Shown here: positions 9,764 through 23,832 of the stretch, in pieces
How the letters are laid out: each line of letters starts with the position of its first letter
How positions within the stretch are numbered: the stretch's first letter is position 1
Virus record (IMG/VR): IMGVR_UViG_3300009537_000002
Location: 1 to 64,000 of that record
Reading direction: 5' to 3' (one strand)
DNA: 64,000 nucleotides
Source of the DNA: a virus
Position numbers and translations under genes: made by a program
Notes under the pieces: generated by a model
The model's database searches: none
What the model was told of the DNA's origin: nothing
Seen by the model: the letters and a program-made list of their open reading frames with translations, nothing else

Positions 9764-10744
9764 CTATACGATATGCCCCACAGCGGCCAAGTCAGACTGA
9801 AGCATATCATTGACCAAGTCTTTGAATGACGTCTCTGGTTCCCATCCAAGCAGTTTTTTGGCTTTCGAACTGTCACCAAGAAGTACATCAACCTCAGCAG
9901 GTCGATAGAATCTTGGGTCTACCTCAACATATTTGCGGTAGTCGCCGAGTCCGGCATAATCAAATGCAATTGCACAGAACTCTCGAATAGAGTGAGTCTC
10001 TCCAGTAGCCAAAACAAAGTCTTCTGGCTGGTGATAGTTGAGCATTCGATACATACCATCTACATAGTCGCGAGCGTGTCCCCAATCTCGTTTTGAGTCG
10101 AGGTTGCCAAGGTAAAGCTTTTGCTGACGTCCGTCCACGATGTTGGCCACACCCAAAGTAATCTTCCGCGTGACAAAATTGGGGCCGCGCCGAGGAGACT
10201 CATGGTTAAACAGAATACCATTGCAAGCAAACATCTTGTACGCTTCGCGGTAGTTGACCGTAATCCAGAAGCCGTAAAGCTTGGCACACCCATATGGAGA
10301 GCGTGGATAAAACGCTGCAGTCTCATCTGTGAGCGTTTCCCCATCTTGACCTCCGAATAGTTCTGACGTTGACGCCTGATAGAATCTAGTATGTATACCT
10401 GAGTCACGGATTGCCTCCAAGCAGTTAAGTACGCCCAGGCCAGTAGCCTGGAGAGTGTATGTGGGTTGTTTGAATGAGGAGCCTACGTGGGACTGGCTTG
10501 CCAGGTTGTAGAACTCATCGGCCTTTGCTAGCTTGCAAAGTTTGTTGAGACTAGGAGGGTCGAGTAGGTCGCCTTCGATGATCTCTAGGTCTTTCTCGTT
10601 CTCTAGATGTGCTGAGCATCCGAGGTCGTTATTGGATGTACGGCGCTTGAAGCCATACACTTTGTAATCTTTCTCGAGCAGGAGTTCAGCGAGGTATGAA
10701 CCATCTTGGCCGGTGACCCCTGTAACTATTGCTGTCTTCTTCAT
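9764..10744 (-). CDS. gmd: GDP-mannose 4,6-dehydratase
   Basis: This extended short-chain dehydrogenase/reductase converts GDP-mannose to GDP-4-keto-6-deoxymannose, a precursor of fucose, rhamnose, perosamine and related sugars. The NADP site G9-VTG-QDG15 is at the N-terminus. The catalytic set lies in ASTSELFGG (Thr about 126, Glu128) and YGCAK (Tyr151, Lys155). The Gmd-specific region NHESPRRGPNFVTRKIT is intact. At 326 aa it is near family length. The ATG at 10744 overlaps the previous stop as ATGA with GAGG upstream; a TTG six bases earlier is the alternative. No reductase or epimerase gene is in the window to complete a pathway. Confidence 0.93.
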   Translation of the reverse strand: MKKTAIVTGVTGQDGSYLAELLLEKDYKVYGFKRRTSNNDLGCSAHLENEKDLEIIEGDLLDPPSLNKLCKLAKADEFYNLASQSHVGSSFKQPTYTLQATGLGVLNCLEAIRDSGIHTRFYQASTSELFGGQDGETLTDETAAFYPRSPYGCAKLYGFWITVNYREAYKMFACNGILFNHESPRRGPNFVTRKITLGVANIVDGRQQKLYLGNLDSKRDWGHARDYVDGMYRMLNYHQPEDFVLATGETHSIREFCAIAFDYAGLGDYRKYVEVDPRFYRPAEVDVLLGDSSKAKKLLGWEPETSFKDLVNDMLQSDLAAVGHIV

Positions 10745-11661
10745 TTCCAATCCTCTGGATGTGGTATCACATCAAATGTTGCTTCCACAATCTCGTCGGA
10801 GATTGGGATGTGTGTTTCCCGGATAGGTTTTCCGTTACACACGTTCTCTAGTATAACAACTTCGGCCGGGCTGCTGCCAATCAACATCGTGTCCAAATGT
10901 TCTATGTAGTACATGCCCCGAGTCCAACCTCGTTTAGCAAGTTCGCTACCACCTTCGGTGCTCGTCTCTTGATAGAGCACACGGCGGATGTCCCATGTCA
11001 CAGGATCGAGCGTAATCGTCCTAGACTTACGAGAGTTGTTGATTGCAATCTCACCAGTTGGTAGTTCCCAGATATCATGTGAACCACGGAGCAGTTCCTG
11101 GTTTTCCAAAACTACCTTGTCGCTTTCTCTTTCAAATACGATTGCCGCTTTTGCGCACAGTCCATACTTATCTGAAAAAGAGTTGAAGTGTAGCGTGTCG
11201 TTGTTGCCCTCATCACTATCAGGAGGAGAAAGACCGGGATGAATACTTGTGTAGTCAGAGAAACAAACCCACTGACTTGCATGTGGATGAAACTTCCAGA
11301 TGGCATTCTGTCGCGTGTTGGTTACCAACAAAGTACTGGGAAACGCCTCGTAGATCTGATGAATGTCCTGACACCTCTTTGACCAGTAACCTTTGTAGAT
11401 ATGCATAGATTCGGGCTCGATTTCAAAAATGCCGTCAAAGCCAGCAGCATACAAATAATCTCGTCCAAGAGATTTGTTCTGAACAAATGCCAGTCCTCGA
11501 GCTCCTCGAGTTCCTCCTCGTGGATTCTTCAAGTCAAACATTGCAAGAGGTAGACGGACTGAATTCAGAATCTCTCCGGACTCAACATCTACACAGTAGA
11601 CACGGCTGGATTCTTCCTTGTTCTTCCCTCTCCCTACTGTACTGACAAATACTCTCTTCAT
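10741..11661 (-). CDS. Beta-propeller-like protein in glycan cassette, 306 aa
   Basis: The protein is built from short repeated beta stretches, e.g. SSRVYCVDVESGEIL, DYLYAAGFDGIFEIE, TLLVTNTRQNAIWKF and GEIAINNSRKSRTITL. These read like propeller blades of the kind seen in NHL or SMP-30-like folds. There is no signal peptide or membrane segment. It overlaps both neighbours by ATGA, so it is co-translated with the glycosyltransferases and Gmd. A role in sugar transfer, lactonase-type chemistry or recognition is possible. No specific family or catalytic residues were identified. Confidence 0.6.
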   Translation of the reverse strand: MKRVFVSTVGRGKNKEESSRVYCVDVESGEILNSVRLPLAMFDLKNPRGGTRGARGLAFVQNKSLGRDYLYAAGFDGIFEIEPESMHIYKGYWSKRCQDIHQIYEAFPSTLLVTNTRQNAIWKFHPHASQWVCFSDYTSIHPGLSPPDSDEGNNDTLHFNSFSDKYGLCAKAAIVFERESDKVVLENQELLRGSHDIWELPTGEIAINNSRKSRTITLDPVTWDIRRVLYQETSTEGGSELAKRGWTRGMYYIEHLDTMLIGSSPAEVVILENVCNGKPIRETHIPISDEIVEATFDVIPHPEDWK

Positions 11662-12713
11662 TTCAGCTGCTCCAAAAACAATCTAAGACGCCCTTCCTCG
11701 AGATCAAAGTCCACACACTCCCTGAATCTATTGTATGCATTCTCACACATCTTGGCATGTCTCTCTGGCTCAGAGTGGTACTTCAAGGCCTCTACAATCT
11801 CCGTTCCTGTACGTATAGAGGTGTCTATACACGTAACACCATCTTGTAGTAATTCTGAGGCCAGACAGCCCCTGTAGTGGGCCCCATACACTACTGCAGG
11901 CCTACCACATGCATATGAGGAGTAGAGAACATGACCATACCCGTCTCCTCCTGGCTTATAATGCCACGTAAACGCTGAATCTTTCATAGCATTAGCCACC
12001 GCCGGTGCCCCCTGCAATTGCAACTGCATCCCTGCACCATAGGTAGTACCCACCCATCCTGGTAGTGCACTCATAACATTAGTGAAAAGACTAGGCTTTT
12101 TCATGTAATGAACATAACTGTTAATGATGTTGTGAAACTTAGGGGGCTCGTATTTGAATACATCTAGGTCAAATTCCTGGTGATATGACACTATTTGCTG
12201 GTTATGACCTGGATGGTACCCATCAATTCGTGCTGATACCATTGCATTTTGCACCCCAGGGGGGATCTGCCAGTTGTTTCCCATCTGAAATACGAGTTTT
12301 GCATGTGGTTGGCACTGTTGAATCAGTGTTTGGTAGGGCACAACGTGCTGTGGCATGCTTGCGATGACGATATCGAAGTCCATTTCACGGAATTTATCGA
12401 GTCTCACTGCTCGATGAGTGGTCCCGAACGTTAAATCCTTGATGTAATACACCCCATCTTCGATTGTGTAGTGCAAATTCTTGCGTTCAACCTCTGGAAG
12501 CGGGTCCCCATGCACGTCATGAGGCACTTCGGTACCCTGATGTAGTCCTAAAAACTGTTCTGCAGTGTTTGGATGGTTGTAAACTTTCCAAAATCCTTGT
12601 TCCCACCACTCTTTTCCGATGGGTCGATACAATTCCCACCCTAATCTTGTCTCGAAAAGACGATATAGAGAGTGAAATAGTGCTTGATGATGGAAATCAG
12701 CTAGTACTTTCAT
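11658..12713 (-). CDS. Glycosyltransferase-like protein (GT-B type)
   Basis: The ATG at 12713 (MKVLADFHHQALFHSLYRLF) overlaps the upstream stop as ATGA. The 351-aa product shows GT-B features: FDIVIASMPQHV in the N-terminal Rossmann-like half, and a C-terminal donor-binding-like stretch (KPGGDGYGHVLYSSYACGRP, then AHYRGCLASELL). It ends in a helical tail typical of GT4-like folds. It should transfer a nucleotide-activated sugar, but donor and acceptor are unknown. Similarity to classic families is weaker than for the genes at 16889-20353. Confidence 0.6.
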   Translation of the reverse strand: MKVLADFHHQALFHSLYRLFETRLGWELYRPIGKEWWEQGFWKVYNHPNTAEQFLGLHQGTEVPHDVHGDPLPEVERKNLHYTIEDGVYYIKDLTFGTTHRAVRLDKFREMDFDIVIASMPQHVVPYQTLIQQCQPHAKLVFQMGNNWQIPPGVQNAMVSARIDGYHPGHNQQIVSYHQEFDLDVFKYEPPKFHNIINSYVHYMKKPSLFTNVMSALPGWVGTTYGAGMQLQLQGAPAVANAMKDSAFTWHYKPGGDGYGHVLYSSYACGRPAVVYGAHYRGCLASELLQDGVTCIDTSIRTGTEIVEALKYHSEPERHAKMCENAYNRFRECVDFDLEEGRLRLFLEQLK

Positions 12714-13477
12714 GGTTTCCTCGCATTGATACGATCCATATTGTCTCTCACCCAATGAATTAAACCAAAATCAAAGGTGTTCCACTGTTTGATACGTGCA
12801 AAAACGTCTGAATCAAGTGTTGTTCTCGAGGGACGAGCCTCTGATTTGTTCTCTACCAGCATTGTTTCAGGTACTTTCCACCCGAATCGCTCTGAAAGAG
12901 CAGGCCATGCAGCATTCAAACCACCTGAGAACCCAATCCAAGCGAAAGATTCATCAATGTTGTGCTCTGCTAACGCTAAATTCACCCCATTAACAGGCTT
13001 TGGGCCCATGTCAGCCTTCTTTCCACTGATATGCAGCCCTGAAACTTGCCTAACCTGGTGATTATTCATCTGATCAAACAGTAGTTCTGCTATGTAAGGG
13101 TCTAGTTGCTTGTACGTATCCTCTTGAAAACATTGGTCTAATGTCAAAGTTTGTAAAGCATTGTAAAGCACATGACCCTTACACCTGTCTTCTCTAAGAT
13201 AGTAGTAGGTAGATAGAACCCTATCTACAGGATGACGCAGTAATGTCAGATACTTACACTTCTGTGGTAGCTTTCTATGGGTACCCCACGGGGCATGCCC
13301 ACTGATATACCTTAGACCCCTCAATTGCTCCTCAGTCATGTTGTGTAGGGCCCTAGGGTGGTCTACAGACATATTGATAGGGCATAATTGTTCTGGGGGG
13401 TAGTTAGGACGTACCCCTGCGGTAAAAGACGTACCTGCACACTTAAATATGTGCATAAAGATTAATGTTTCTGTCAT
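12710..13477 (-). CDS. PAPS-dependent sulfotransferase
   Basis: The start at 13477 (MTETLIFMHIFKCAGTSF) overlaps the upstream stop as ATGA. The 5'-phosphosulfate loop H9-IFKCAGTS17 with Lys12 is the hallmark of the sulfotransferase fold and resembles the HIPKTAGTS form of carbohydrate sulfotransferases. The 3'-phosphate motif LLRHPVDRVLSTYYYLR carries Arg81 and Ser89. SGHAPWG at about 59-65 supplies a His usual in the heparan-sulfate-type group. The enzyme would move sulfate from PAPS to a sugar hydroxyl, probably on the glycan made by the surrounding genes. It is rare in phages. Confidence 0.85.
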   Translation of the reverse strand: MTETLIFMHIFKCAGTSFTAGVRPNYPPEQLCPINMSVDHPRALHNMTEEQLRGLRYISGHAPWGTHRKLPQKCKYLTLLRHPVDRVLSTYYYLREDRCKGHVLYNALQTLTLDQCFQEDTYKQLDPYIAELLFDQMNNHQVRQVSGLHISGKKADMGPKPVNGVNLALAEHNIDESFAWIGFSGGLNAAWPALSERFGWKVPETMLVENKSEARPSRTTLDSDVFARIKQWNTFDFGLIHWVRDNMDRINARKP

Positions 13478-14481
13478 GTTATGGGTCTCAGGATGTTTCC
13501 TAGGGTACCTTCGTGTTGGGATACCGCAGCTCGAGATAAACCACACCCCTTTATGCTTCTGTTCACAGCTTCCTTATACTGTAGGTTAAAATAGGCTGCA
13601 GGAGAAGACTGAGGGACAGGGAAGAGCTTGTTCATCATTGACCACCATGCAAACTTCTTTTCGAAATGAACTCTAATCGTATGATCAGGAACAGGAGGAA
13701 ACCCCTTTGGTTTGTTCCAGTTTTTGTTACCAATTGGGATCATATTCTCATCGAGAAGATGACCATTGAGAGTTGTCGAGCCGGAACCAACGTGGATCCA
13801 AGGAGGAGGAATCTTATTTTCTCTGATGACATCAATGAGTCTCCATTGTTTTATTTGGTGGACAGACAAGCCCAGGGCTCTAAGTTGAATAGAAGCCCAA
13901 ACGAATGTATCGCCACCGGTCTCTTGGGTTGGAGTAAAATCGAGCTCAGGAATGAATACGCCAGGAGCATATCTCTTTGCTCTGAAATTACAGTCTGTCT
14001 TTCGCAGGTCTTCTGTCCGACACGCAAACAACGAGGGCCAGAAGTTTGGTTGTAATGCCTCGTCACCTGTCAGACCGAACTTGCGTGCTGTCGCCTTGAT
14101 GATTTGTGGACCAACGCAACCACGCATTGATCCAACCATGTCTTTGTGTCCGCTCTCTACAATGTGAAACCAATTCTGCACTGCGTCTGGAGTTTGTACG
14201 TAGAAGTCATCCTCGAGAATGAGGACATGGTCTTCACCTACTATCTTGAGTAGTTCAGTTAGAGCGGGACCGTGATCGATGAACTTATGATGATGGATGA
14301 TTGTTGCTTCACAACTCAGGAAGAGGTCGTTCACATATTGGAAGATGGGATCCTCGGCCGGTGAGTTCAAACAAACGTAGAGCTTATCAACGTGTTGCTT
14401 GATATACTTTTTGTATGATGATACCCACCCGGCGCAGATGTATGGATCTCCTGGAGTGGGCAACAAGATCGCCCGGCTCAT
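13474..14481 (-). CDS. Glycosyltransferase-like protein (GT-A type)
   Basis: The 335-aa protein begins with a GT-A-like Rossmann strand (AILLPTPGDPYICAGWVSSY). It has an acidic metal-binding candidate E90-DD92 in HVLILEDDFYV, followed by a helix and GSMRGCVG. The C-terminal part contains HVGSGSTT, which may bind the sugar or acceptor. There is no membrane anchor. It overlaps the sulfotransferase gene by ATGA. Sugar and acceptor cannot be predicted. A related non-transferase fold is possible but less likely in this cassette. Confidence 0.65.
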   Translation of the reverse strand: MSRAILLPTPGDPYICAGWVSSYKKYIKQHVDKLYVCLNSPAEDPIFQYVNDLFLSCEATIIHHHKFIDHGPALTELLKIVGEDHVLILEDDFYVQTPDAVQNWFHIVESGHKDMVGSMRGCVGPQIIKATARKFGLTGDEALQPNFWPSLFACRTEDLRKTDCNFRAKRYAPGVFIPELDFTPTQETGGDTFVWASIQLRALGLSVHQIKQWRLIDVIRENKIPPPWIHVGSGSTTLNGHLLDENMIPIGNKNWNKPKGFPPVPDHTIRVHFEKKFAWWSMMNKLFPVPQSSPAAYFNLQYKEAVNRSIKGCGLSRAAVSQHEGTLGNILRPIT

Positions 14482-14489
14482 CTCTTCTC

Positions 14490-15164
14490 CTAATAGACGT
14501 CATTCAGAGCGATGATATTGTCGTCTGTCTTCCTGGTCTTCTGGAATAATACCATTCCACGAGGGTTAGGTACATGGATCAGTTGCACTTGGAAATCTGT
14601 GATGTAGCTCTGGAGTTTGGGTCTCCACTGACCGTATGGCCAGTCCAGTACGCCATGATATGTCTGCCCGTGTCTTCCTAGACTAGGATGAAGATCGTGA
14701 ATGGCAATCAGCCCTCCTTCTTTCACATTGGGCCAGAACCTGATGAACTCGTCGAAACGAAACTGTGGCTCTGAGTCCAGGAAAAGAAAATCGATGTCTT
14801 CTGGCATTTCTGCCGTGAGCGAAGACTCGAGGACTCCTTTGATCCTGTGCTTTAGATCGAGATCAAACCATAGAGCGTTTGCGTTCTGCAACAGAGGAGG
14901 AATGACCTCATATGTAGTCAGCTGTCCGGACCGATTATCCTCCAAAGCCTGGGCAATGTACGCACTCGAGATGCCAAGGTGTGTGCCTGTCTCAACAACA
15001 ATGTTTGGTCGCCAAGCTCGCACGAGACCGTAGAGCATCTCTGCTACCTCCACTTCAACTCCTCCAGAGTTGAACATAGAGTACTTCTGATTTGGGTCAG
15101 ACACTTCCGGCTCAATCTTAAGCCGTTTGGTCCTTGCTAGCATACTGTCTGTAAGACTACTCAC
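14490..15164 (-). CDS. SAM-dependent methyltransferase
   Basis: The GTG at 15164 has GGAG seven bases upstream and overlaps the previous gene by eight bases. The 224-aa product has motif I VVETGTHLGISSAY, an acidic strand after it (LTTYEVIPP), DFLFLDSEPQF as the post-motif strand, and IAIHDLHPSLG later. This is the class I methyltransferase layout seen in macrocin/TylF-like and related sugar O-methyltransferases. It probably methylates a sugar of the glycan assembled by this cassette. The target is inferred from context only. Confidence 0.8.
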   Translation of the reverse strand: MSSLTDSMLARTKRLKIEPEVSDPNQKYSMFNSGGVEVEVAEMLYGLVRAWRPNIVVETGTHLGISSAYIAQALEDNRSGQLTTYEVIPPLLQNANALWFDLDLKHRIKGVLESSLTAEMPEDIDFLFLDSEPQFRFDEFIRFWPNVKEGGLIAIHDLHPSLGRHGQTYHGVLDWPYGQWRPKLQSYITDFQVQLIHVPNPRGMVLFQKTRKTDDNIIALNDVY

Positions 15165-16176
15165 CGAGATACTCCTTCCATGACGCAGAGATCATATCTT
15201 TGTTAAAATGTCGAATCGCACTGTCACGACCATTCTTACTGACCTTGGCTGCCAGCTCATCATTGGTCAACAAGACCTGAATGATCTTCTGTAGCTGCAC
15301 TGGGTCATCAGATACAAACCCGTTGAATCCATTTTGGATTAAGTCAGGTACCTCATACAACTGGTGGTTCTGCAGATGTGCCGCGTTGCCATGCTGTGGA
15401 CCAATGGCCACAATAGGAATGCCAGTCATCCACGCTTCCATGAAGTTGAGAGTGTAAGATGCAGGATGAGTACCGGTATAGAAGTAGACTCGATTGGTCC
15501 TCATCTCTTCCTTGAGCTGCTCATACGGAACAGCACCACTAGTCCAGTCCTGCCCTTCATTGCCTGGACCAAAAAGATGACGATCGAATGGACGCGTCAC
15601 TTGTTCAAACAACGAGTAGTTACAGGCAACATCTCTGCTCTTCATGTTCTGAGCGAACGTGACAACTCTCTTCTTCTCTCCTGTCCAACCTCCATACTGC
15701 TCTGGGTCTTTGTAGAAGCGAATGAGTGCGTTCTGACCAGCGAAGCCGGGGATGTTGGCTTCACGAGGAGAATAGCGAACTACTTCAACTCCTTGGGCCA
15801 CATACTGACCCATGGCTTGCTCTGTAGAAGTTACAGACTGTCCAATGGTTCGCCAGATGACGCGAGTGTCTTTGAGAGCCTTCCAGTTACCTGAAATCCA
15901 ACGTGGCAGGTGCATGACGATGACACAGTCGAAATTGTCTACAAACTCTTTCGTGAGACAGTCTCTAGAGTCAATACCAGGCTCAGCTAGCTTGCTGTAT
16001 TGTTCCAGCCACTCGGGACGAATGGTCATACCAGGAATAGAAGGACGCTTATTGTCATGAGGAGTGACGGGATTCACATAGGCTCCTGCCGGAAATACTT
16101 CGTGTCCCATCTCGTGTAGCATCTTCACTTCCTCATACTCGAGGATAGAATGACAGGACAAATAGAGGATCTTCAT
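15157..16176 (-). CDS. Glycosyltransferase, GT4-like (GT-B)
   Basis: The start at 16176 (MKILYLSCHSILEYEEVKML) overlaps the upstream stop as TAATG. The N-terminal domain has the Rossmann-like MKILYLS strand and a V-I-V-M-H-L-P segment. The C-terminal donor domain includes PASYTLNFMEAWMTGIPIVA and GFNGFVSDDPVQLQKII, both typical of GT4 enzymes. The last helix is standard for the fold. The product would be a retaining sugar transferase in the cytoplasm. Substrates are unknown. Confidence 0.8.
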   Translation of the reverse strand: MKILYLSCHSILEYEEVKMLHEMGHEVFPAGAYVNPVTPHDNKRPSIPGMTIRPEWLEQYSKLAEPGIDSRDCLTKEFVDNFDCVIVMHLPRWISGNWKALKDTRVIWRTIGQSVTSTEQAMGQYVAQGVEVVRYSPREANIPGFAGQNALIRFYKDPEQYGGWTGEKKRVVTFAQNMKSRDVACNYSLFEQVTRPFDRHLFGPGNEGQDWTSGAVPYEQLKEEMRTNRVYFYTGTHPASYTLNFMEAWMTGIPIVAIGPQHGNAAHLQNHQLYEVPDLIQNGFNGFVSDDPVQLQKIIQVLLTNDELAAKVSKNGRDSAIRHFNKDMISASWKEYLGE

Positions 16177-16892
16177 TAGAGCTCCCTCACCCACAGCGAC
16201 TGCTGCAGGTCAAATAGGCACTTCCAACCCTCCTCGACAAGGATAGGTTTCAGGAGGCCTGGCTTGCCACCACCGGGCAATCTGTTGTCATCAATCAAAA
16301 CTATAGAGTTATCATTTAATTGATCTTCCACAGCCTTGAACTCACGCACCGTGTGCTCCTGGCAAGGGTAGACGATGTCAGCGAATTTCTTCTGAAGCTC
16401 CTCGTGTGGGATCTTCTTCATGATCTCCATGGCTGTGTCGAAGTCTGGATCATAGGCTTTGGCCATTTCAAAGATCGGGTAGTCCCAGGAGTCTAGGTAG
16501 AGCAGGTCAATCTCTCCCATCCATTCCTGAAGGAACACGGCCGAATCATTGTGGTAGGTGTAGACCTTATTCATGTTCTGTGGTGCCCATGGAGCGATAC
16601 ACTTCTCTGCTACAGACAAGTGATAGACATTGTTGTCTACAACATGCAGCTCGCCACCATAGCGAGCGATGTATTCAGCAAAGATACTTGTGGACATACC
16701 AGCGCCAAGATCATCTTCCTGACGCTGGCACCCGGTCTCCACGATCACGGGAGGTTTGTCCCGTTGAACGAGCATATTCATGGCCAACTGAAACGTGTAG
16801 AAGCGTGAGTTGGAACCATCTGCGTAGTATTTCTGGAAGAACCACTGATCGTCTGTGTCTGTGAACACTAGGTCTTGCACGTGTTCTTTCAT
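16176..16892 (-). CDS. SAM-dependent methyltransferase-like protein
   Basis: The 238-aa product carries PVIVETGCQRQEDDLGAGMS at motif I, with a longer loop than usual, then LHVVDNN as the acidic strand and IDLLYLDSWD as the third motif. IVLIDDNRLPGGGKP near the C-terminus supplies a metal- or substrate-binding acidic patch, as in class I methyltransferases acting on sugars. It overlaps the upstream gene as ATGA and the downstream one as TAATG. It resembles the neighbour at 14490-15164 only in fold. The target is probably a sugar. Confidence 0.7.
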   Translation of the reverse strand: MKEHVQDLVFTDTDDQWFFQKYYADGSNSRFYTFQLAMNMLVQRDKPPVIVETGCQRQEDDLGAGMSTSIFAEYIARYGGELHVVDNNVYHLSVAEKCIAPWAPQNMNKVYTYHNDSAVFLQEWMGEIDLLYLDSWDYPIFEMAKAYDPDFDTAMEIMKKIPHEELQKKFADIVYPCQEHTVREFKAVEDQLNDNSIVLIDDNRLPGGGKPGLLKPILVEEGWKCLFDLQQSLWVREL

Positions 16893-18010
16893 TTTGATAA
16901 CTCCTTCTGAATCTCTTCAAGCCTACTCTTCATCCTGTTACCAAGGACATCATAGTTGAGCTTCTCGATGACCTCGTTCTTACCCGCTGCGCCGGTTGCT
17001 GCCGCATAGTCACGATTCTCAAACATCCTGCGCATCTTACGACGTGCATCCAAAACGTCAGGCTGTGCCCACTTCATGTCTCCTGTGTAGAGAGGCCATG
17101 GCATCCCATACGTTGGTGTCATCATATAGTCAATATTGTCCTGGGTTCCCATGAAGTCTTCTTGACCGCCATATGCTGTCGCCAACACAGGATTGCCCGC
17201 TAGCATTGCCTCTACAAAAGGAATGCCGAAGCCTTCGCAACGATGCAATGCAACATAGCAGTCACCTTCGTTGTGTAGAGCTCGAATCTGAGCTCGAGAC
17301 AACAAGGAGGAGATGAGGAGAATCTTGGGGTAGGACTTCAGGTAGAGCTTACTCTTGATCGCCTTGATGCTGTTCCTAATATTGTTTGCTTCCTGCGGGT
17401 TACTGGGGTTGACCAAGTAGGTCTTCAATACCAAGGCTACAGGATCAGAGCGTTTGAACTCTGTCAGATAAGCCTTGAGCAGGTCGAGCGGGTTCTTTCG
17501 CTCCGTCCACTGGAAGATAGAATAGAAGACAAAGTCTTCATGGCTAACATTAGCCACCACGGTCTCGCTGCTTTCTTCTTCAGGCAGGTCGGTCTCAAAT
17601 GGATGAGGCATAACCTGTACAGGCACGGTAATTCCTGACTCTTCAAATGCGACTTTGTTGTGCTCTGATGGCACCCATACTTCTTGGAGCTGATTGATCA
17701 TCGGCACCCAGTCTGTTGGTAGTCTATCTGTTTCCCATGCACAGTATCCAATGTTGTACTTATCTTCTTTGACGAGGTTCTTGTAGTTCTGCGGAGTCAG
17801 GTGAAGAACCTGGATGTCACCTTCGGGGTTACGGCCGATGAGACTTTGCACAAGCGTCCCAATTCTACCCAGGTCAGAACGATATCCTTCAAATGACACT
17901 GCTTTTACATTGACGGTGACACCAACGTGGTCGAGTGCTGCAATATGATTACGAGCCGCTTCTGCATATCCACTTGAATCTAGACATGCACTCACATAAG
18001 TAATGTTCAT
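16889..18010 (-). CDS. Glycosyltransferase family 4-like
   Basis: I chose the ATG at 18010 (MNITYVSACLDSSGYAEAAR), two bases after the upstream stop. The 373-aa GT-B protein has YNIGYCAWETDRLP and VWVPSEHNKVAFEESG in the acceptor half. FSIFQWTERKNP-type sequence begins the donor half. The GT4 signature is HRCEGFGIPFVEAMLAGNPV, with the E-x7-E pair that holds the nucleotide sugar. It ends in a long basic-acidic helix. It is one of two adjacent GT4 genes, suggesting sequential sugar additions. Confidence 0.88.
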   Translation of the reverse strand: MNITYVSACLDSSGYAEAARNHIAALDHVGVTVNVKAVSFEGYRSDLGRIGTLVQSLIGRNPEGDIQVLHLTPQNYKNLVKEDKYNIGYCAWETDRLPTDWVPMINQLQEVWVPSEHNKVAFEESGITVPVQVMPHPFETDLPEEESSETVVANVSHEDFVFYSIFQWTERKNPLDLLKAYLTEFKRSDPVALVLKTYLVNPSNPQEANNIRNSIKAIKSKLYLKSYPKILLISSLLSRAQIRALHNEGDCYVALHRCEGFGIPFVEAMLAGNPVLATAYGGQEDFMGTQDNIDYMMTPTYGMPWPLYTGDMKWAQPDVLDARRKMRRMFENRDYAAATGAAGKNEVIEKLNYDVLGNRMKSRLEEIQKELSK

Positions 18011-18011
18011 C

Positions 18012-19268
18012 TTAAACCTCTTCCGAAATGACAAGCGGCGTGTCGTCGTTGAAGTTGTCTACTTCGTCAAATAGATCAACCCACTGCTTGGTTACTATTT
18101 GCCAATCATGTTCAACGGCCCAGTTTCGAGCTTGTTGTACAACAGGGTTCTTCTTCTTGGGGCCAGCGTTGTATACCTTGAGGAGCTGTTCCACAATATC
18201 CGGTATGAGACCCTTAGGACGAAAGCCCGAGGAGTCGATCCAAAGCTTGTCCTTACAGTCATACATGTAGCCACGTTCTGATTCAGAACCGAGCTGCTGA
18301 GGCATGCACGTGTTGTTAGGCGCCACTACTGGGACACCCGCTGCCATTGCCTCTGTCACAGTCAGGCCCCATCCCTCACCCAAGTGGGTGGTGAGAAACA
18401 CATCACCACAATTGTAGAACTGATTGAGAATGTAGGTTGGAGCTGGTTGAGACGGAGAGTATCTTCCTGGAAAAACTACATCAGTCGCTGGGTTGAGACC
18501 AAGATCCGCTAATACCTTCCGAAGGTCAGAGCCCTGGTCTACGATTGATGTGTGACAGTACATGATTGAGTTAGGAACGATTTTCCTGAACTCCTTGAAC
18601 GCCAAGATAGAGTAGGGGAATTGTTTCCTGGTAGAGTTCCGGTTGATAGCCACAACTACGAAGGTATCTGGATCAACATTTAGATACTGCTTTTTCCACG
18701 CGGCAATAGATTCATCGCCCATTGGCTGGAAGGCAGTGGAGTCCACACCATGTGGAATTTCTCGGACCTTCGTTCTGAGGTGTGGCTTAGCTTTGATTGT
18801 TTCGATCTTGCCATGGGCCGTGTAGCACACAGCCATATCTACTGAGTCTAACATGTCAGATGCATCGCCAGGAACATGGCAATCGACAGGGTAGTAGTAG
18901 ACAAACTTTGGAGGCTTGATGTTCTTCATCACACACTGTTCACGCAGTTGGGTAATGAACGATGCAACCCGGTGTGTTATGAACAGATCGTTCAAAATCC
19001 AGACCATATCGTACTGGTTCTTTTGAAGAGCCTGGGCGAACATCTTTACGCCATGAGGATCGTTCACTGGGTCGGCAATCTTGGCCGGTCTCATTTGCCA
19101 AGGAACTTCTTCCTTGTCTACGAAATCGCCATGGAAGTTGATAGCCAACTGGTGGATATCATACTTGCCAGTTGCATGGAGAGCTCCAATCACATGCTTG
19201 GACACCACACCGAAGCCAGTGCCTGCGGTAGGTGAATCGCTCCAGCACAGAACCTTCTTCTTCTCCAT
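18012..19268 (-). CDS. Glycosyltransferase family 4
   Basis: This 418-aa GT-B enzyme has an N-terminal GTGFGVVSKHVIGALHATG glycine-rich loop, the phosphate-binding VAINRNSTRKQFPYSILAF at the start of the donor domain, and the signature HLGEGWGLTVTEAMAAGVPV. The acceptor half includes YYYPVDCHVPGD. The start overlaps the upstream stop as TAATG. It is the most canonical transferase of the cassette. Length is normal for the family and no key residue looks missing. Confidence 0.9.
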   Translation of the reverse strand: MEKKKVLCWSDSPTAGTGFGVVSKHVIGALHATGKYDIHQLAINFHGDFVDKEEVPWQMRPAKIADPVNDPHGVKMFAQALQKNQYDMVWILNDLFITHRVASFITQLREQCVMKNIKPPKFVYYYPVDCHVPGDASDMLDSVDMAVCYTAHGKIETIKAKPHLRTKVREIPHGVDSTAFQPMGDESIAAWKKQYLNVDPDTFVVVAINRNSTRKQFPYSILAFKEFRKIVPNSIMYCHTSIVDQGSDLRKVLADLGLNPATDVVFPGRYSPSQPAPTYILNQFYNCGDVFLTTHLGEGWGLTVTEAMAAGVPVVAPNNTCMPQQLGSESERGYMYDCKDKLWIDSSGFRPKGLIPDIVEQLLKVYNAGPKKKNPVVQQARNWAVEHDWQIVTKQWVDLFDEVDNFNDDTPLVISEEV

Positions 19269-20353
19269 TAGATGACCTCCGTTTCAATCTGCATGGGTTT
19301 GATACTATCTAGTAGTTCCAAAATATTCACTTTCTCAGTGTTATTCAAATGTTCTACGCACTTTTCTACAATAGACTGTGGGGTAATCCTGTCCCAACAG
19401 GCATATCCGGTCGGACAATGGTCATAGAAGCACGGACAAGCCGGGATATCAGCACCTTCCCAGATGGCCGTAGCGGCCTCGTAGTGATTTATTCGGCTCT
19501 GGGGTGGGGATGGACCAAATAAACCGACTGTGGGGACGCCTAGAGCTCCTGAGAGGTGCAATATTGAGGAGTCAGGACACAAGACAAGGTCACAGTGGAC
19601 CATGACACCGGCAATTCCACGGATATCTAGATCTTTCAGATAGACACTTCCGGGGATGTTGTCCCATAGAACGTCGCTGTTGTCGTCAGAACTGTGAGCG
19701 AGAATGACCGCCCTAACACCAAAATTCTGGTAGAGGCTGATGAGAGCTTGCTTGACCTTGGTGTGGATACCGGATCTGGCCTTTGATGAAGAGAACGGTT
19801 GGACCAACACCATCTTTTCGTTCTGGTTGACTCCTCGAAGGAGAAGTTCACCGCTCTCGATCTCTTCTCTCTGGATGTAGTATTTAGGTACAGGATCCTC
19901 AAGCTTTACTCCTGCGTGCATTGCAAACAGATCGATCCTACTTGGGGGCATTGCTCTTGGCTTCTCGTGCTTGATTGCTGGACAATGGAGGTTCACCACT
20001 AGATCAAAGGTGAGATCATCCATCAAGTCTCGTTCTATTATATGAGAGATGTTGTGATTGTACTTGAGTACTTTTACCAGGGCACCATCTAGGTACCTGG
20101 TGTTAGTAGCGAATGTAATCTCTGCGGCCTCGAACATCTGTTTAATTGCTGTGACGGTCGGGGTGGCTGTGAGAACATCGCCGATGCCTTCTCCTCTAAC
20201 TACACAGATGCGTGGCTGCTGTGTGCGCAGCAGTTGGTGTAGTCTAGAGAGTTTGATAGCTGGTCTGTCACGAGCGGCTCCCTTGGGGAGCTTCATGCGC
20301 CCGCCGAACTGAACTACACCATCAGAACTGAGGGTGACTTTTTGTGTTGCCAT
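19268..20353 (-). CDS. Glycosyltransferase family 9 (heptosyltransferase-like)
   Basis: GT9 enzymes add heptose or related sugars to lipopolysaccharide cores. The 361-aa protein has the GT9 N-terminal loop VVRGEGIGDVLTATP and the C-terminal donor motif CPDSSILHLSGALGVPTVGL followed by FGPSPPQSR. A four-cysteine cluster, CPCFYDHCPTGYAC, near the C-terminus is typical of some GT9 members. It is the first gene transcribed in the cassette. GT9 in a phage suggests either modification of host lipopolysaccharide or virion glycosylation. Confidence 0.88.
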   Translation of the reverse strand: MATQKVTLSSDGVVQFGGRMKLPKGAARDRPAIKLSRLHQLLRTQQPRICVVRGEGIGDVLTATPTVTAIKQMFEAAEITFATNTRYLDGALVKVLKYNHNISHIIERDLMDDLTFDLVVNLHCPAIKHEKPRAMPPSRIDLFAMHAGVKLEDPVPKYYIQREEIESGELLLRGVNQNEKMVLVQPFSSSKARSGIHTKVKQALISLYQNFGVRAVILAHSSDDNSDVLWDNIPGSVYLKDLDIRGIAGVMVHCDLVLCPDSSILHLSGALGVPTVGLFGPSPPQSRINHYEAATAIWEGADIPACPCFYDHCPTGYACWDRITPQSIVEKCVEHLNNTEKVNILELLDSIKPMQIETEVI

Positions 20354-20356
20354 GCG

Positions 20357-21355
20357 TTACATGCTTGCCGCTAGGAGGCATCCTCTTGCGACCGCTCTGA
20401 GCGGGTCTTTTGCTGGTCTAACTCCGGAGACCTCAAGAGGGAAGTCACCTTGTCCCAACCTGTCACGAAAAGCTTCCACAAACCCGGAAGCTCTCGACGT
20501 ACCGCCAGAGACCACAACAGGTATAGCGGCAGTAAACTTAGGAAGATCACCACTCCCTGCAAGCCGTGAGCCAAGGCTCCTAACAGTGTAATCAATGAGA
20601 CGAAGGTAGTAAGAGGATACTGCGTTAAGAATCGGATTGTCCGACTCAGTACCCACTGTAAAGTTTCCATTTTCTTTCTCCACTTGGACTATTGTGTCCT
20701 TTTGAGCAGTTGATTGCGCAGCCATGCGATCGATCCAGTCTCCGCTCTTTGTAGTAGAGAAACGAAGTACAGGCTCGCCTGACGACATAACGCAGACATT
20801 AACCATTCCAGCCCCAAACGACAAACAGATGCCAGTATAGTCATCATCTTCTAACTCCGAGTAGCAGATTGCTTCTGCCTCGTTAAGCGACTGGGCGTTC
20901 CAGCCGAGCTCACCCAGGTCCTTCTTGAGGACATCTTCGTGGTAACCAGTATTGAACTCCTCATCACCCTGGTCCATGGGCTCTGCTGGAACAGAATAGA
21001 CTAGGGTTTCACCGGGAGTTGCTGGTAGGCCAACAAGTTGGGTGAAGATAAACTTGAGCACCCTGCGTGCTTCAGGCTCGAGGGGATTCATGACCCCACG
21101 CCTGAGAGGACGGAGTGCTGTTGCATTTCTTTCGATTGCTTTGTCGATGGCATCTTGTCCTACGACTACGTAGGAGCCATCCTCGTCTTTGAAGTAGGCC
21201 AGGTTAGCCAAGCCTTTCTCCATCATCTTGCCAGCGATAGGTGTAGCTGGCTTCATGCGATAGAACGCATCACGGAACTCTGTATAGCTCAGACCTTCTT
21301 CAGACTCAGTAGCTTTGATGATGAATGAGGTTCCTACATCTAATCCAATACCCAT
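20357..21355 (-). CDS. Actin/ParM/MreB-like ATPase
   Basis: The 332-aa protein has the actin-superfamily layout. Phosphate-1 is IGLDVGTSF (residues 3-11) with Asp6. The connect-1 region has NEAEAICYSE near 158-167. Phosphate-2 is CLSFGAGMVNVCV (177-189), where the usual Asp is Ser179. The adenosine motif is VVSGGTSRASGF (281-292). Length matches ParM-type filaments. It may form filaments that position phage DNA or organise the infected cell, as phage actins and tubulins do elsewhere. It directly follows a small membrane protein gene. Loss of the phosphate-2 Asp may alter ATP turnover. Confidence 0.8.
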   Translation of the reverse strand: MGIGLDVGTSFIIKATESEEGLSYTEFRDAFYRMKPATPIAGKMMEKGLANLAYFKDEDGSYVVVGQDAIDKAIERNATALRPLRRGVMNPLEPEARRVLKFIFTQLVGLPATPGETLVYSVPAEPMDQGDEEFNTGYHEDVLKKDLGELGWNAQSLNEAEAICYSELEDDDYTGICLSFGAGMVNVCVMSSGEPVLRFSTTKSGDWIDRMAAQSTAQKDTIVQVEKENGNFTVGTESDNPILNAVSSYYLRLIDYTVRSLGSRLAGSGDLPKFTAAIPVVVSGGTSRASGFVEAFRDRLGQGDFPLEVSGVRPAKDPLRAVARGCLLAASM

Positions 21356-21775
21356 TTACTTCTCCTTCTTCTTGCGGAGGGCTGCCAACTTAGATTTGCT
21401 TTTCCCAAGACCTTTGTCAACAACCTTTTGTTCTTTGGTAGCACCATCGAGATTCGTGGCCTCTACGTTCATTTTGAGGTTGGTTGGGATGACTGATTCG
21501 TCGATTTCGACCGGAGCCATACCAGCCCCACCAATACTAGTATTCCTACCGACACGACCAATCGTAATCGTTCTGAGATCATCTCTAAACTCCTGCATGA
21601 CTGTTCTAAATTCTTTGCCCATCTCTTTGGCTATCTTGCGGGCGAGCTCATCTGTGTTGACGGAAGACCGATCCCCCCCACCAAAAGTAGCAAACTCACT
21701 GGGTTTTCTAGTCTTTCGCATAGCTACCCCTGCAATGAAAAGAAGCAAACAGCCCACGGCTGCTAACTCCCACAT
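21356..21775 (-). CDS. Membrane-anchored basic protein next to the actin-like gene
   Basis: One N-terminal transmembrane helix (MWELAAVGCLLLFIAGVAMR) precedes a charged helical region (DELARKIAKEMGKEFRTVMQ). A Gly-rich linker and a strongly basic tail (GLGKSKSKLAALRKKKEK) follow. It ends immediately before the actin-like gene starts and begins at a TAATG overlap with the gene before. The order suggests a membrane or DNA-binding adaptor for the filament, by analogy with plasmid segregation pairs. That is inference from position; no family was recognised. Confidence 0.6.
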   Translation of the reverse strand: MWELAAVGCLLLFIAGVAMRKTRKPSEFATFGGGDRSSVNTDELARKIAKEMGKEFRTVMQEFRDDLRTITIGRVGRNTSIGGAGMAPVEIDESVIPTNLKMNVEATNLDGATKEQKVVDKGLGKSKSKLAALRKKKEK

Positions 21776-22173
21776 TACATCACGATTACTTCGAAGACGC
21801 CTGAGACTGTGACAAGCTCCATGTCTGAAACAGGCATGTCATTGTCTAGCTCGTAGGTCTCTCCAGCAGCCAAAGGTATGAGAGCTCCTGTATCATCCTT
21901 GTATCGGATGCCAGAAGTGAGATTCACTACTCCCAGATTGAACTGATTGAAGTCGTCTTCAAGTAGCTCACGCTGCGGAAACATATTTTGATAGACATTG
22001 AACCTGAAGCTCATGTCAGAAACGCCACACTCAATGTTGATCTTTGTTGCGGGCTTACCAAGAGAGTCCTGGAACATAAGGACGTCACCAGTCCCACCGT
22101 CAGCATCTGTAAAGCGCTGACTGCGCTCGTTGGCAGGTACGCCTGGGTTAACCTTTTTGACAATGTCGGCCAT
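21775..22173 (-). CDS. Small beta-rich structural protein, 132 aa
   Basis: The product starts MADIVKKVNPGVPANERSQR and is beta-rich thereafter (IECGVSDMSFRFNVYQN, GVVNLTSGIRYKDDTG), ending DMELVTVSGVFEVIVM. The composition is that of a virion accessory or tail-tip protein. It is the last gene of the baseplate/fibre block before the actin pair and follows the fibre gene by 12 bases. It contains the VSGV tetrapeptide common in these virion genes. No family was recognised. Confidence 0.6.
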   Translation of the reverse strand: MADIVKKVNPGVPANERSQRFTDADGGTGDVLMFQDSLGKPATKINIECGVSDMSFRFNVYQNMFPQRELLEDDFNQFNLGVVNLTSGIRYKDDTGALIPLAAGETYELDNDMPVSDMELVTVSGVFEVIVM

Positions 22174-22185
22174 TGACTTCCTCCA

Positions 22186-23832
22186 TTAGATTGTAGCCCA
22201 GCTATCACCACCGAATGCACAAAACGTAGCCGTTTCAAATGCACCACTCACAGTGAGAGAGGGCTGTCCGTCGATTGTTTGAACACCTGATGCCAGCACA
22301 TTCAAAGGAGCTAGCCCAGATGTCACATTTTTGACCACAATACACTGACCATCAATGCCAGCTGCAGTTGGTAGTGTAACATTAATGCCGGAAACAATCA
22401 TATCCGCCAGCACCAAATCTCCAGCTACGGCCACATAGGCACCACTGATTACGCTTGTTGGGTTATATCTAGGCTGTACACCAGCCACGGGCACCCAGTC
22501 AGCACCGTCATACTCAAGGGCATCACCGGCAACCAATCCACCCAAAGCTGTGTCGCCAAGATCTCCCATTTCGAGTTCGTCATTCACCCATTGACTACCA
22601 ACTCGAACCAGAGTCTCACGATCAGATGGACCAGAGACTGCCACATCAGATAGGTCTCCAACAGAAGACTCAACCGACACCAGCTCACGCCAATCATTGC
22701 CATCAGACATACGAGGCGTATCCTCAGCAATAGCGTAGGCAAACATACCTCGATAAGAGGCAGCAGCAGGCAGAGCGGCTACATTGGTAAAGTCCGAACG
22801 GAACCTGCTTCCACTACCATTGGCATGGATGACACCATCAAAGTAACCATCTCTCCATCTAAGCGGTGTACCGTCATCACCAATGTCTCGAGTGTTGTTA
22901 ACATCAGGCGTAATATTAGAAGCGACACCAGTAAATACTGGAGCAGCAGGAGTTGAGGCAATCCAGATAGAACCGTTGTAGGTCAATACCTGATTGATAC
23001 TTGGCGAGGTTGTTACATCAGTGAGATCGTTCAGTGCCTGATTCAGACCTGAAGCTCCGGTCGGGAACGACACACCGGTACCAGCAATCATGTTCAACAG
23101 AACATCTCCACTACCAGTCTCAGTGATCCTTAGAGCCCCAGTAGTGACGTCTACTGTCAACGTGTACTCAACGTCAGATGGAGCCTCTGAATCTGCTGAG
23201 TTAGCAATCATCGTCAAAGACGCTGGACCAAGATAGATGTCACGAATACGATTGGTTGGGCTACCAATATCGAATGTATCGTCAATCGATGGTAGGTAAG
23301 GCTGAGCTACGGCACTTAAGTCTAGCGTTGAAGAGACAAGCGACAGAGCATTGACCTGGGTCATGACCTCCAGCAATGCTTCTTCTACATTAGCCGAAGC
23401 ATAGAGACCTGGGGCATCGGCAAATGAGATTTGGGTTGCAGTTAGCGTGGTGTTACTGATCTGATTCTCAAGATCATCACGAATGGTGTTGACCGTGGAA
23501 TAGACCGCATCGAATTGCTCGAGCACTGAATTGGGACGTGTAGTAGCGGTATTGAAATACAGAGAGTTGACCGAAGCAGTAGCATTCTGGTCTACATAGA
23601 GGTTTGCTCCATCCAGGCCGTTGGCAAAAGCATCAACGCCTGCGCTAGGGACACCATTGGGAAGCGACTCTGTTAGGGGGACAAGCCTATTGTTCCACTG
23701 GCTGTTAAGATTGGCCAGATCAATGGCAAGTTCCTCGTTGGTGTCGTTAATTTGGTCCGAGGATGTTGGGCCCCGCTTCCTGGCATTACGCTTCTGAAAC
23801 TGGAGCTGAATGACTTCTAGCTTATCGGTCAC
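22186..23832 (-). CDS. Tail fibre-like protein, 548 aa
   Basis: The start is a GTG at 23832 with GGAGG upstream. A short charged N-terminus, which could attach to the baseplate, precedes an Asn/Thr/Ser-rich body of short beta repeats (e.g. DIGSPTNRIRDIYLG, DIGDDGTPLRWRDGYFDG, GDLSDVAVSGPSD, GDLGDTALGG). These are typical of trimeric fibre shafts. The C-terminal 100 residues form a compact beta domain (VISGAYVAVAGDLVLADMIV...). It probably contributes to host recognition. No intramolecular chaperone or enzymatic domain was seen. Confidence 0.7.
   Translation of the reverse strand: MTDKLEVIQLQFQKRNARKRGPTSSDQINDTNEELAIDLANLNSQWNNRLVPLTESLPNGVPSAGVDAFANGLDGANLYVDQNATASVNSLYFNTATTRPNSVLEQFDAVYSTVNTIRDDLENQISNTTLTATQISFADAPGLYASANVEEALLEVMTQVNALSLVSSTLDLSAVAQPYLPSIDDTFDIGSPTNRIRDIYLGPASLTMIANSADSEAPSDVEYTLTVDVTTGALRITETGSGDVLLNMIAGTGVSFPTGASGLNQALNDLTDVTTSPSINQVLTYNGSIWIASTPAAPVFTGVASNITPDVNNTRDIGDDGTPLRWRDGYFDGVIHANGSGSRFRSDFTNVAALPAAASYRGMFAYAIAEDTPRMSDGNDWRELVSVESSVGDLSDVAVSGPSDRETLVRVGSQWVNDELEMGDLGDTALGGLVAGDALEYDGADWVPVAGVQPRYNPTSVISGAYVAVAGDLVLADMIVSGINVTLPTAAGIDGQCIVVKNVTSGLAPLNVLASGVQTIDGQPSLTVSGAFETATFCAFGGDSWATI

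Follow-up and report, generated by a model that had tools for sequence, protein, structure and literature searches.

A volactin-family actin and its constant membrane-type partner in a tailed phage

The gene pair and its actin

The window, the whole 64,000-nucleotide stretch analysed here, is part of a 103,635-base IMG/VR virus record that also carries primase-helicase, baseplate, tail-fibre and virion structural genes; the virus is a tailed phage. Two adjacent genes of the window encode a small protein, called the adaptor here, and an actin-like protein (Table 1). We found their open reading frames joined stop-to-start (TAA directly followed by ATG), with a GGAG stretch within the 3′ end of the adaptor gene. 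The sequence-only reading of this DNA had claimed a small membrane protein with a basic tail directly before the actin gene, and the hydrophobic N-terminus, the stop-to-start junction and the basic tail of the adaptor bear this out. An overlapping ORF inside the actin gene (20371-20670, 99 aa) has no family match in Pfam or PHROGs and was taken as a chance reading frame.

Table 1. Positions of the actin and adaptor genes and of their notable parts
Feature	Positions	Strand	Basis
Volactin-family actin, 332 aa	20357..21355	(-)	Pfam PF25216, AlphaFold, MamK match
Adaptor/anchor protein, 139 aa, directly upstream of actin	21356..21775	(-)	upstream position in 81/81 clade A loci
Ser179, phosphate-2 loop (SFGAGMVN), Ser replacing Asp	20819..20821	(-)	alignment to MreB Asp
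Adaptor N-terminal hydrophobic (membrane) helix, residues 1-19	21719..21775	(-)	Kyte-Doolittle 2.06
Adaptor central conserved element IDESVIPTNL, residues 91-100	21476..21505	(-)	adaptor alignment
Adaptor C-terminal tail VVDKGLGKSKSKLAALRKKKEK, residues 118-139, proposed actin-binding part	21359..21424	(-)	conserved in alignment

The window actin matches the Pfam Volactin profile PF25216 with residues 1-330 (209.2 bits against a cut-off of 35, E = 1.4e-61), covering 1-321 of the 321 profile positions, and falls below the cut-offs of the Salactin and MreB_Mbl profiles. PHROGs gave no meaningful match for the actin or the adaptor, and a sequence search of solved structures returned a single match for the actin, at E 0.25. 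The actin-fold signature claimed earlier was confirmed, with phosphate-1 GLDVGT and adenosine GGTS motifs present. The fold itself, on which that claim could have failed, was predicted by AlphaFold2 from an alignment of 43 viral rows and is that of an actin, at high confidence (pLDDT 93.2, pTM 0.90). Among solved structures the best match is MamK (5ljv_A, Z 29.2, 292 residues, rmsd 2.7), followed by BeeR (Z 27.8) and MreB (Z 26.8), with 18-23% identity to the window actin over aligned residues; among viral models, Foldseek ranked Hsp70 first. The window actin is a full-length volactin-family member with a predicted actin fold and nucleotide-binding motifs.

Of these closest solved folds, MreB has Asp in its phosphate-2 loop whereas the window actin has Ser: Ser179 aligns with the Asp of the E. 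coli MreB motif. The earlier reading had singled out this substitution as an exception in the signature; it is real, but it is no oddity of the window protein. We found Ser in 87 of 87 distinct clade A actins (the window's own clade, drawn from 152 loci), in all 43 rows of the viral alignment, in 14/14 bacterial volactins on the tree and in 2/2 haloarchaeal ones, the latter both being plasmid-borne. Hence, the Ser is no defect, since it is common to every volactin-family sequence examined. Because Haloferax volactin forms dynamic filaments in cells, as described in the passages available from PMC10869688, the Ser loop is, by analogy, probably compatible with dynamic filaments.

The adaptor and its changing neighbours

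Relatives of the window actin are encoded in 112 stretches picked up by scanning viral contigs. Eighty of the 112 were kept, and together with the window they gave 81 clade A loci with the adaptor upstream of the actin in 81/81, although these loci are non-independent and some contigs are near-copies. With relatives encoded by 112 viral stretches and the order of the two genes unchanged in all 81 loci, the pairing is far beyond chance. A profile built from 22 adaptors finds the adaptor in 80 of the 81 loci; in the 81st (L047) the contig begins 166 bases before the actin, and the adaptor tail is in frame there. The gap between adaptor and actin is at most 118 bases, except in L022 and L023, where one other gene lies between; this gene encodes 276 aa and is methyltransferase-like by eye. 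A later scan, which used a loose pattern and shared many contigs with the first, gave a tail-bearing ORF upstream in 72/72 loci, 70 of them within 150 bases. Searching with the adaptor as query, we found an actin GLDVGT start 10 to 130 bases downstream in six of six loci, two of which are contigs already found.

An N-terminal hydrophobic stretch is present in 75 of the 80 adaptor rows (52 of 56 distinct), and in 73 of those 75 rows Lys and Arg are richer after the stretch than before it, a charge pattern that suggests a cytosolic adaptor tail. Among the exceptions, L002 regains the stretch with a rarer start codon, L064 has it after an over-long start, L063 starts with identical sequence, and L003 and L060, both among the window's nearest relatives, are without a clear membrane helix. 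Five clade A adaptors gave no family match above cut-off (five searched in Pfam, three in PHROGs), the window adaptor having a sub-threshold Pfam match to DUF3253 (E 0.06). Genetically, the adaptor is the actin's invariable partner; it consists of an N-terminal membrane helix, assigned by hydropathy, a linker and a C-terminal tail that is conserved.

At their C-termini, clade A adaptors share a pattern of the type DDIxSSVSKLAQLKxK. We translated the L024 adaptor, a relative of the window's, through its stop into the actin and modelled the product with AlphaFold. The read-through model has a helix at residues 2-28 and disorder at 29-61 (pLDDT below 50); residues 71-100 have pLDDT blocks of 82, 93 and 87, with a strand at 78-83 and a helix at 86-98, and the artificial joint at 101-110 (pLDDT 63) leads into the actin. 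The confidence values of this one model suggest that the tail docks on the actin. As described in passages of PMC5173319, a peptide of arcadin-2 and of ParR binds a hydrophobic groove of their respective actins.

We surveyed the neighbouring genes in 25 chosen loci, grouped by eye into five gene contexts. The actin family occurs in 25/25 loci and BLAST groups 18 adaptors into one family, the remainder having diverged further or been missed by the ORF picking; every other neighbour family occurs in 6 of the 25 at most, and actin and adaptor are the only families that cross all contexts. In the window's context, shared with its closest relatives, tail-fibre and virion structural genes come before the pair and glycosyltransferase-like genes after it. 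Downstream of the window actin, 9764-20353 holds sugar-nucleotide and glycosyltransferase-like genes, with Glyco_transf_9 at 19268-20353 and the rest assigned by eye. The context of L012 has DNA polymerase III alpha and IMP dehydrogenase near the pair, that of L014 has a gp32-like SSB, UvsX/RecA, a 5′-3′ exonuclease and a DnaB-like helicase, and two further contexts, with few of their genes tested, have no clear function. Hence, the pair travels as a unit, because its other neighbours change between phage lineages, and since the context differs between lineages it does not fix one function. The genetic link between actin and membrane protein that had been claimed for the window is upheld by this retention of the pair.

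Relatives and similar tails beside other volactins

Scanning with a sister sequence found 257 viral stretches (80 kept; 72 with new identifiers, many on contigs already found). Annotated phage records held two relatives, from uncultured phages of 485 and 595 kb, and these two sequences as queries led to clade B (108 stretches, 80 kept) and to clade C (8 loci). One clade C actin gene (L176:6001-8178) is split by an intein that carries an HNH domain and is inserted immediately behind the phosphate-2 loop (ISFGSGMTN). A bacterial query found a further viral lineage with a volactin-like actin (L214:3631-4993), whose upstream protein of 103 aa is without a membrane stretch and has a basic tail at its end. 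A viral scan with a haloarchaeal volactin as query found no relative.

A genome scan yielded two MAG contigs with clade A members. In the phylum of one MAG, a volactin-family search gave 2/198 genomes above cut-off, one being the MAG's own clade A copy and the other a marginal match (35.6 bits; G137, equal to L213) that was left out of the tree. In the phylum of the other MAG it gave 16/200, comprising the MAG's own clade A copy, one contig-end fragment and 14 that were retrieved. Counting weaker family matches at E 0.001, the totals are 5/198 (2 above cut-off) and 54/200 (16 above).

In the tree, clades A, B and C, the haloarchaeal volactins and the bacterial volactins each lie on one side of a well-supported branch, and clade A, the window's, is a deep lineage of its own (support 100/99). 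The five lineages lie at similar distances, with 30-38% mean identity. Unrooted, the tree separates A and B from C, haloarchaea and bacteria (support 98/95); an MreB root falls on a long branch. That the phage gene was recently acquired from haloarchaea was considered and is unsupported, given the similar distances and this unrooted split.

Because a 24-column HMMER profile of the tail gave nothing useful, we used an ungapped position matrix of the clade A tails, and as a second choice, made after seeing the unweighted results, a weighted one. With the unweighted matrix, 2319, 1223, 199 and 7 of 5000 shuffles scored at least as high as the proteins of L171, L173, L172 and L175, respectively, and for the two haloarchaeal proteins 165 and 1 of 5000 did so. 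With the weighted matrix, the best window in the whole protein lies 2-10 residues from the C-terminus in 6/6 clade C partners, compared with 118/1008 background ORFs, and between 0 and 74 of these 1008, which come from phage loci, score as high as the partner tails. The partner in L169 and L170 is that of L082, and L174 is cut before its partner. Clade C partners have no membrane stretch, or a borderline one (1.6) in L171 and L176, and carry a FIPS element that resembles the adaptor's central element by eye. Twelve clade B partners were measured; all are without a membrane stretch and have a different tail. Clade B partners (L089-L168) are proteins of about 75 aa upstream of the actin that end in WAIPDF...KINFGKK, in 69/81 loci by a loose pattern, and by eye alone this tail is like part of the DUF7139 tail described below.

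Among bacterial volactins, ORF picking places one or both of two proteins, X and Y, before the volactin in 12/14 loci (L201-L212), with the gene order X, Y, volactin. Ten X were seen, with a FimV N-terminal domain in 2/2 tested, and eleven Y, of 136-155 aa. L199 and L200 have no X or Y partner; in L199 a SpoIIE-like phosphatase gene precedes the volactin and an AsmA gene follows it. The hydrophobic stretch of X ends 76-84 residues before the C-terminus (10/10), and Y has one or two such stretches in its first 51 residues (11/11). Both share the layout of the phage adaptor: a membrane-type stretch, a long hydrophilic part and a tail. When windows were sought in the last 35 residues only, the best one stopped 1-7 residues short of the C-terminus in 10/10 X and 2-4 short of it in 11/11 Y, a weak test given that restriction; it is the best in the whole protein in 5/10 X and 10/11 Y, and in the rest another part scores higher. 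Of 143 background ORFs, 0-13 score as high for X and 0-10 for Y, and of 2000 shuffles 10-477 and 10-93, respectively, the weakest X being those of L206, L208, L202 and L212 (477, 292, 189 and 156).

The two haloarchaeal volactins (Haloarcula plasmid and Natrinema megaplasmid) are preceded by a DUF7139 gene, whose protein has four hydrophobic stretches. By tblastn of a plasmid collection, the same 4 records match volactin and DUF7139 protein, always side by side, three of the records being Haloarcula and two of these one strain; H. volcanii has both families above cut-off, which speaks to presence only. The long C-terminal tail of the Natrinema DUF7139 protein holds two matrix matches, SSGVDQQVAGLKGLKG and SSTVDDQTAKLKELRE; that of Haloarcula has one, SNDVDDAVDGLRQLQG, at the matching place, and a second repeat by eye only. 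Of the 1008 background ORFs, again from phage loci, 43 and 1 reach their best scores.

A membrane-type stretch precedes the tail in X (10/10), Y (11/11) and DUF7139 (2/2). From these comparisons, a similar tail seems to occur near the C-terminus of unrelated proteins whose genes adjoin volactin genes in other phages, bacteria and haloarchaea, with weak statistics for several single proteins; members of X, of Y and of clade C are each related among themselves, which leaves few independent cases. From one lineage to another the anchor part seems to be replaceable, with the tail kept.

A proposed membrane-anchored filament system

We favour, with reasonable confidence, the reading that the pair is a membrane-anchored actin filament system of a tailed phage. 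The family, the predicted fold, the constant pairing, the membrane-type stretch and the conserved tail are observed; docking, anchoring, filaments and a role in infection are what we infer. The adaptor tail would dock on an actin subunit, perhaps in the end-exposed hydrophobic groove used by ParR, arcadin-2 and WH2 peptides, and the docked adaptor would hold or start filaments at the inner membrane. Less certainly, the filaments may, in the way proposed for AlpA-AlpC, position phage DNA or its replication factory at the membrane of the infected cell. The filaments probably organise phage DNA or assembly, and in the window's own lineage a late role in virion assembly is about as likely as DNA placement. 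The sequence-only reading had likewise proposed a membrane-linked filament: its actin fold, membrane protein and genetic linkage hold, and the filament is kept as the best explanation.

The nearest known system is volactin of Haloferax volcanii (VolA, HVO_2015), of the same PF25216 family at full length. Haloarchaeal plasmid volactins are 34-35% identical to the window actin and share with the phage pair the Ser phosphate-2 loop and a membrane protein encoded upstream; the window actin differs in being phage-borne, with a small partner that has one membrane stretch and is not DUF7139. In Haloferax, it is the tips of the volactin filaments that attach to the membrane; no anchor is named in the available passages of that account (PMC10869688). 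The same source reports an effect on cell shape, and in the window the pair comes after tail-fibre and virion structural genes and before glycosyltransferase-like ones; both points fit a filament that serves virion assembly or host-envelope remodelling, not DNA placement. We regard this as somewhat improbable for the pair, which in two other contexts (L012 and L014 annotated) sits among DNA polymerase, recombinase, SSB and helicase genes. An actin-fold ATPase that does not polymerise, of chaperone or kinase-like type and with an incidental neighbour, is scarcely credible. It would accord with the replaced phosphate-2 Asp and with Hsp70 leading the Foldseek viral models, yet every family member examined has the Ser, Haloferax volactin polymerises, the solved matches are led by filament proteins and the neighbour is constant.

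In the crenactin cluster, the C-terminal peptide of arcadin-2 binds the actin groove, as proposed here for the phage tail, and by itself depolymerises crenactin (PMC5173319), whereas the phage partner looks like an anchor. The phage tail is also a short C-terminal helix in the read-through model, and it could by this precedent be a regulator: by occupying the groove that subunits need for contact with one another, it would hold the actin as monomers or cap membrane-bound filaments, making the pair a switch more than a scaffold. We consider this unlikely: sequestration needs no membrane helix, yet 75 of the 80 adaptor rows have a membrane-type stretch, as do the measured bacterial and haloarchaeal partners. 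Segregation of the ParM or AlpC kind, with the adaptor bound to a centromere-like site on phage DNA, is very unlikely. AlpA of the Corynebacterium prophage CGP3 is, like the phage adaptor, encoded upstream of a phage actin, AlpC, whose filaments are proposed to guide DNA to the membrane (PMC4446434), and the pairs of two contexts adjoin replication genes. However, AlpA binds DNA (PMC4446434, as far as its available passages go), whereas the phage adaptor is a short protein that has a membrane-type stretch and in which no DNA-binding domain can be recognised, the five adaptors searched giving no family match above cut-off (DUF3253 at E 0.06 for the window's). ParMRC resembles the proposed pair in having an actin with a groove-binding partner (ParM:ParR, PMC5173319), but its order is reversed, actin first (PMC4446434), and the adaptor's membrane-type stretch is a further difference. 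No iterated repeats lie within 19268-22300, only two-copy short ones, and the operon promoter may be further upstream.

Returning to the membrane-anchored filament system, we tentatively propose, with some doubt, a general anchoring code: a short C-terminal tail on unrelated adjacent membrane proteins may recruit volactin-family filaments to the membrane in phages, in bacteria (FimV-like and two-helix proteins) and in haloarchaea (DUF7139). The volactin family is known from haloarchaea; in the portions of the open-licence literature consulted, we found no phage volactin, no membrane-anchored phage version and no shared tail. The present work places the family in several hundred viral stretches (257 and 108), on contigs up to 533 kb, and in bacterial genomes, and it names candidate volactin anchors with a short tail. 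The phage pair would also be another kind of phage cytoskeleton beside the tubulin-like PhuZ and the prophage actin AlpC. If the anchoring code is true, DUF7139 would be one of the proteins that fix Haloferax volactin to the membrane, with phages having an anchored form of their own.
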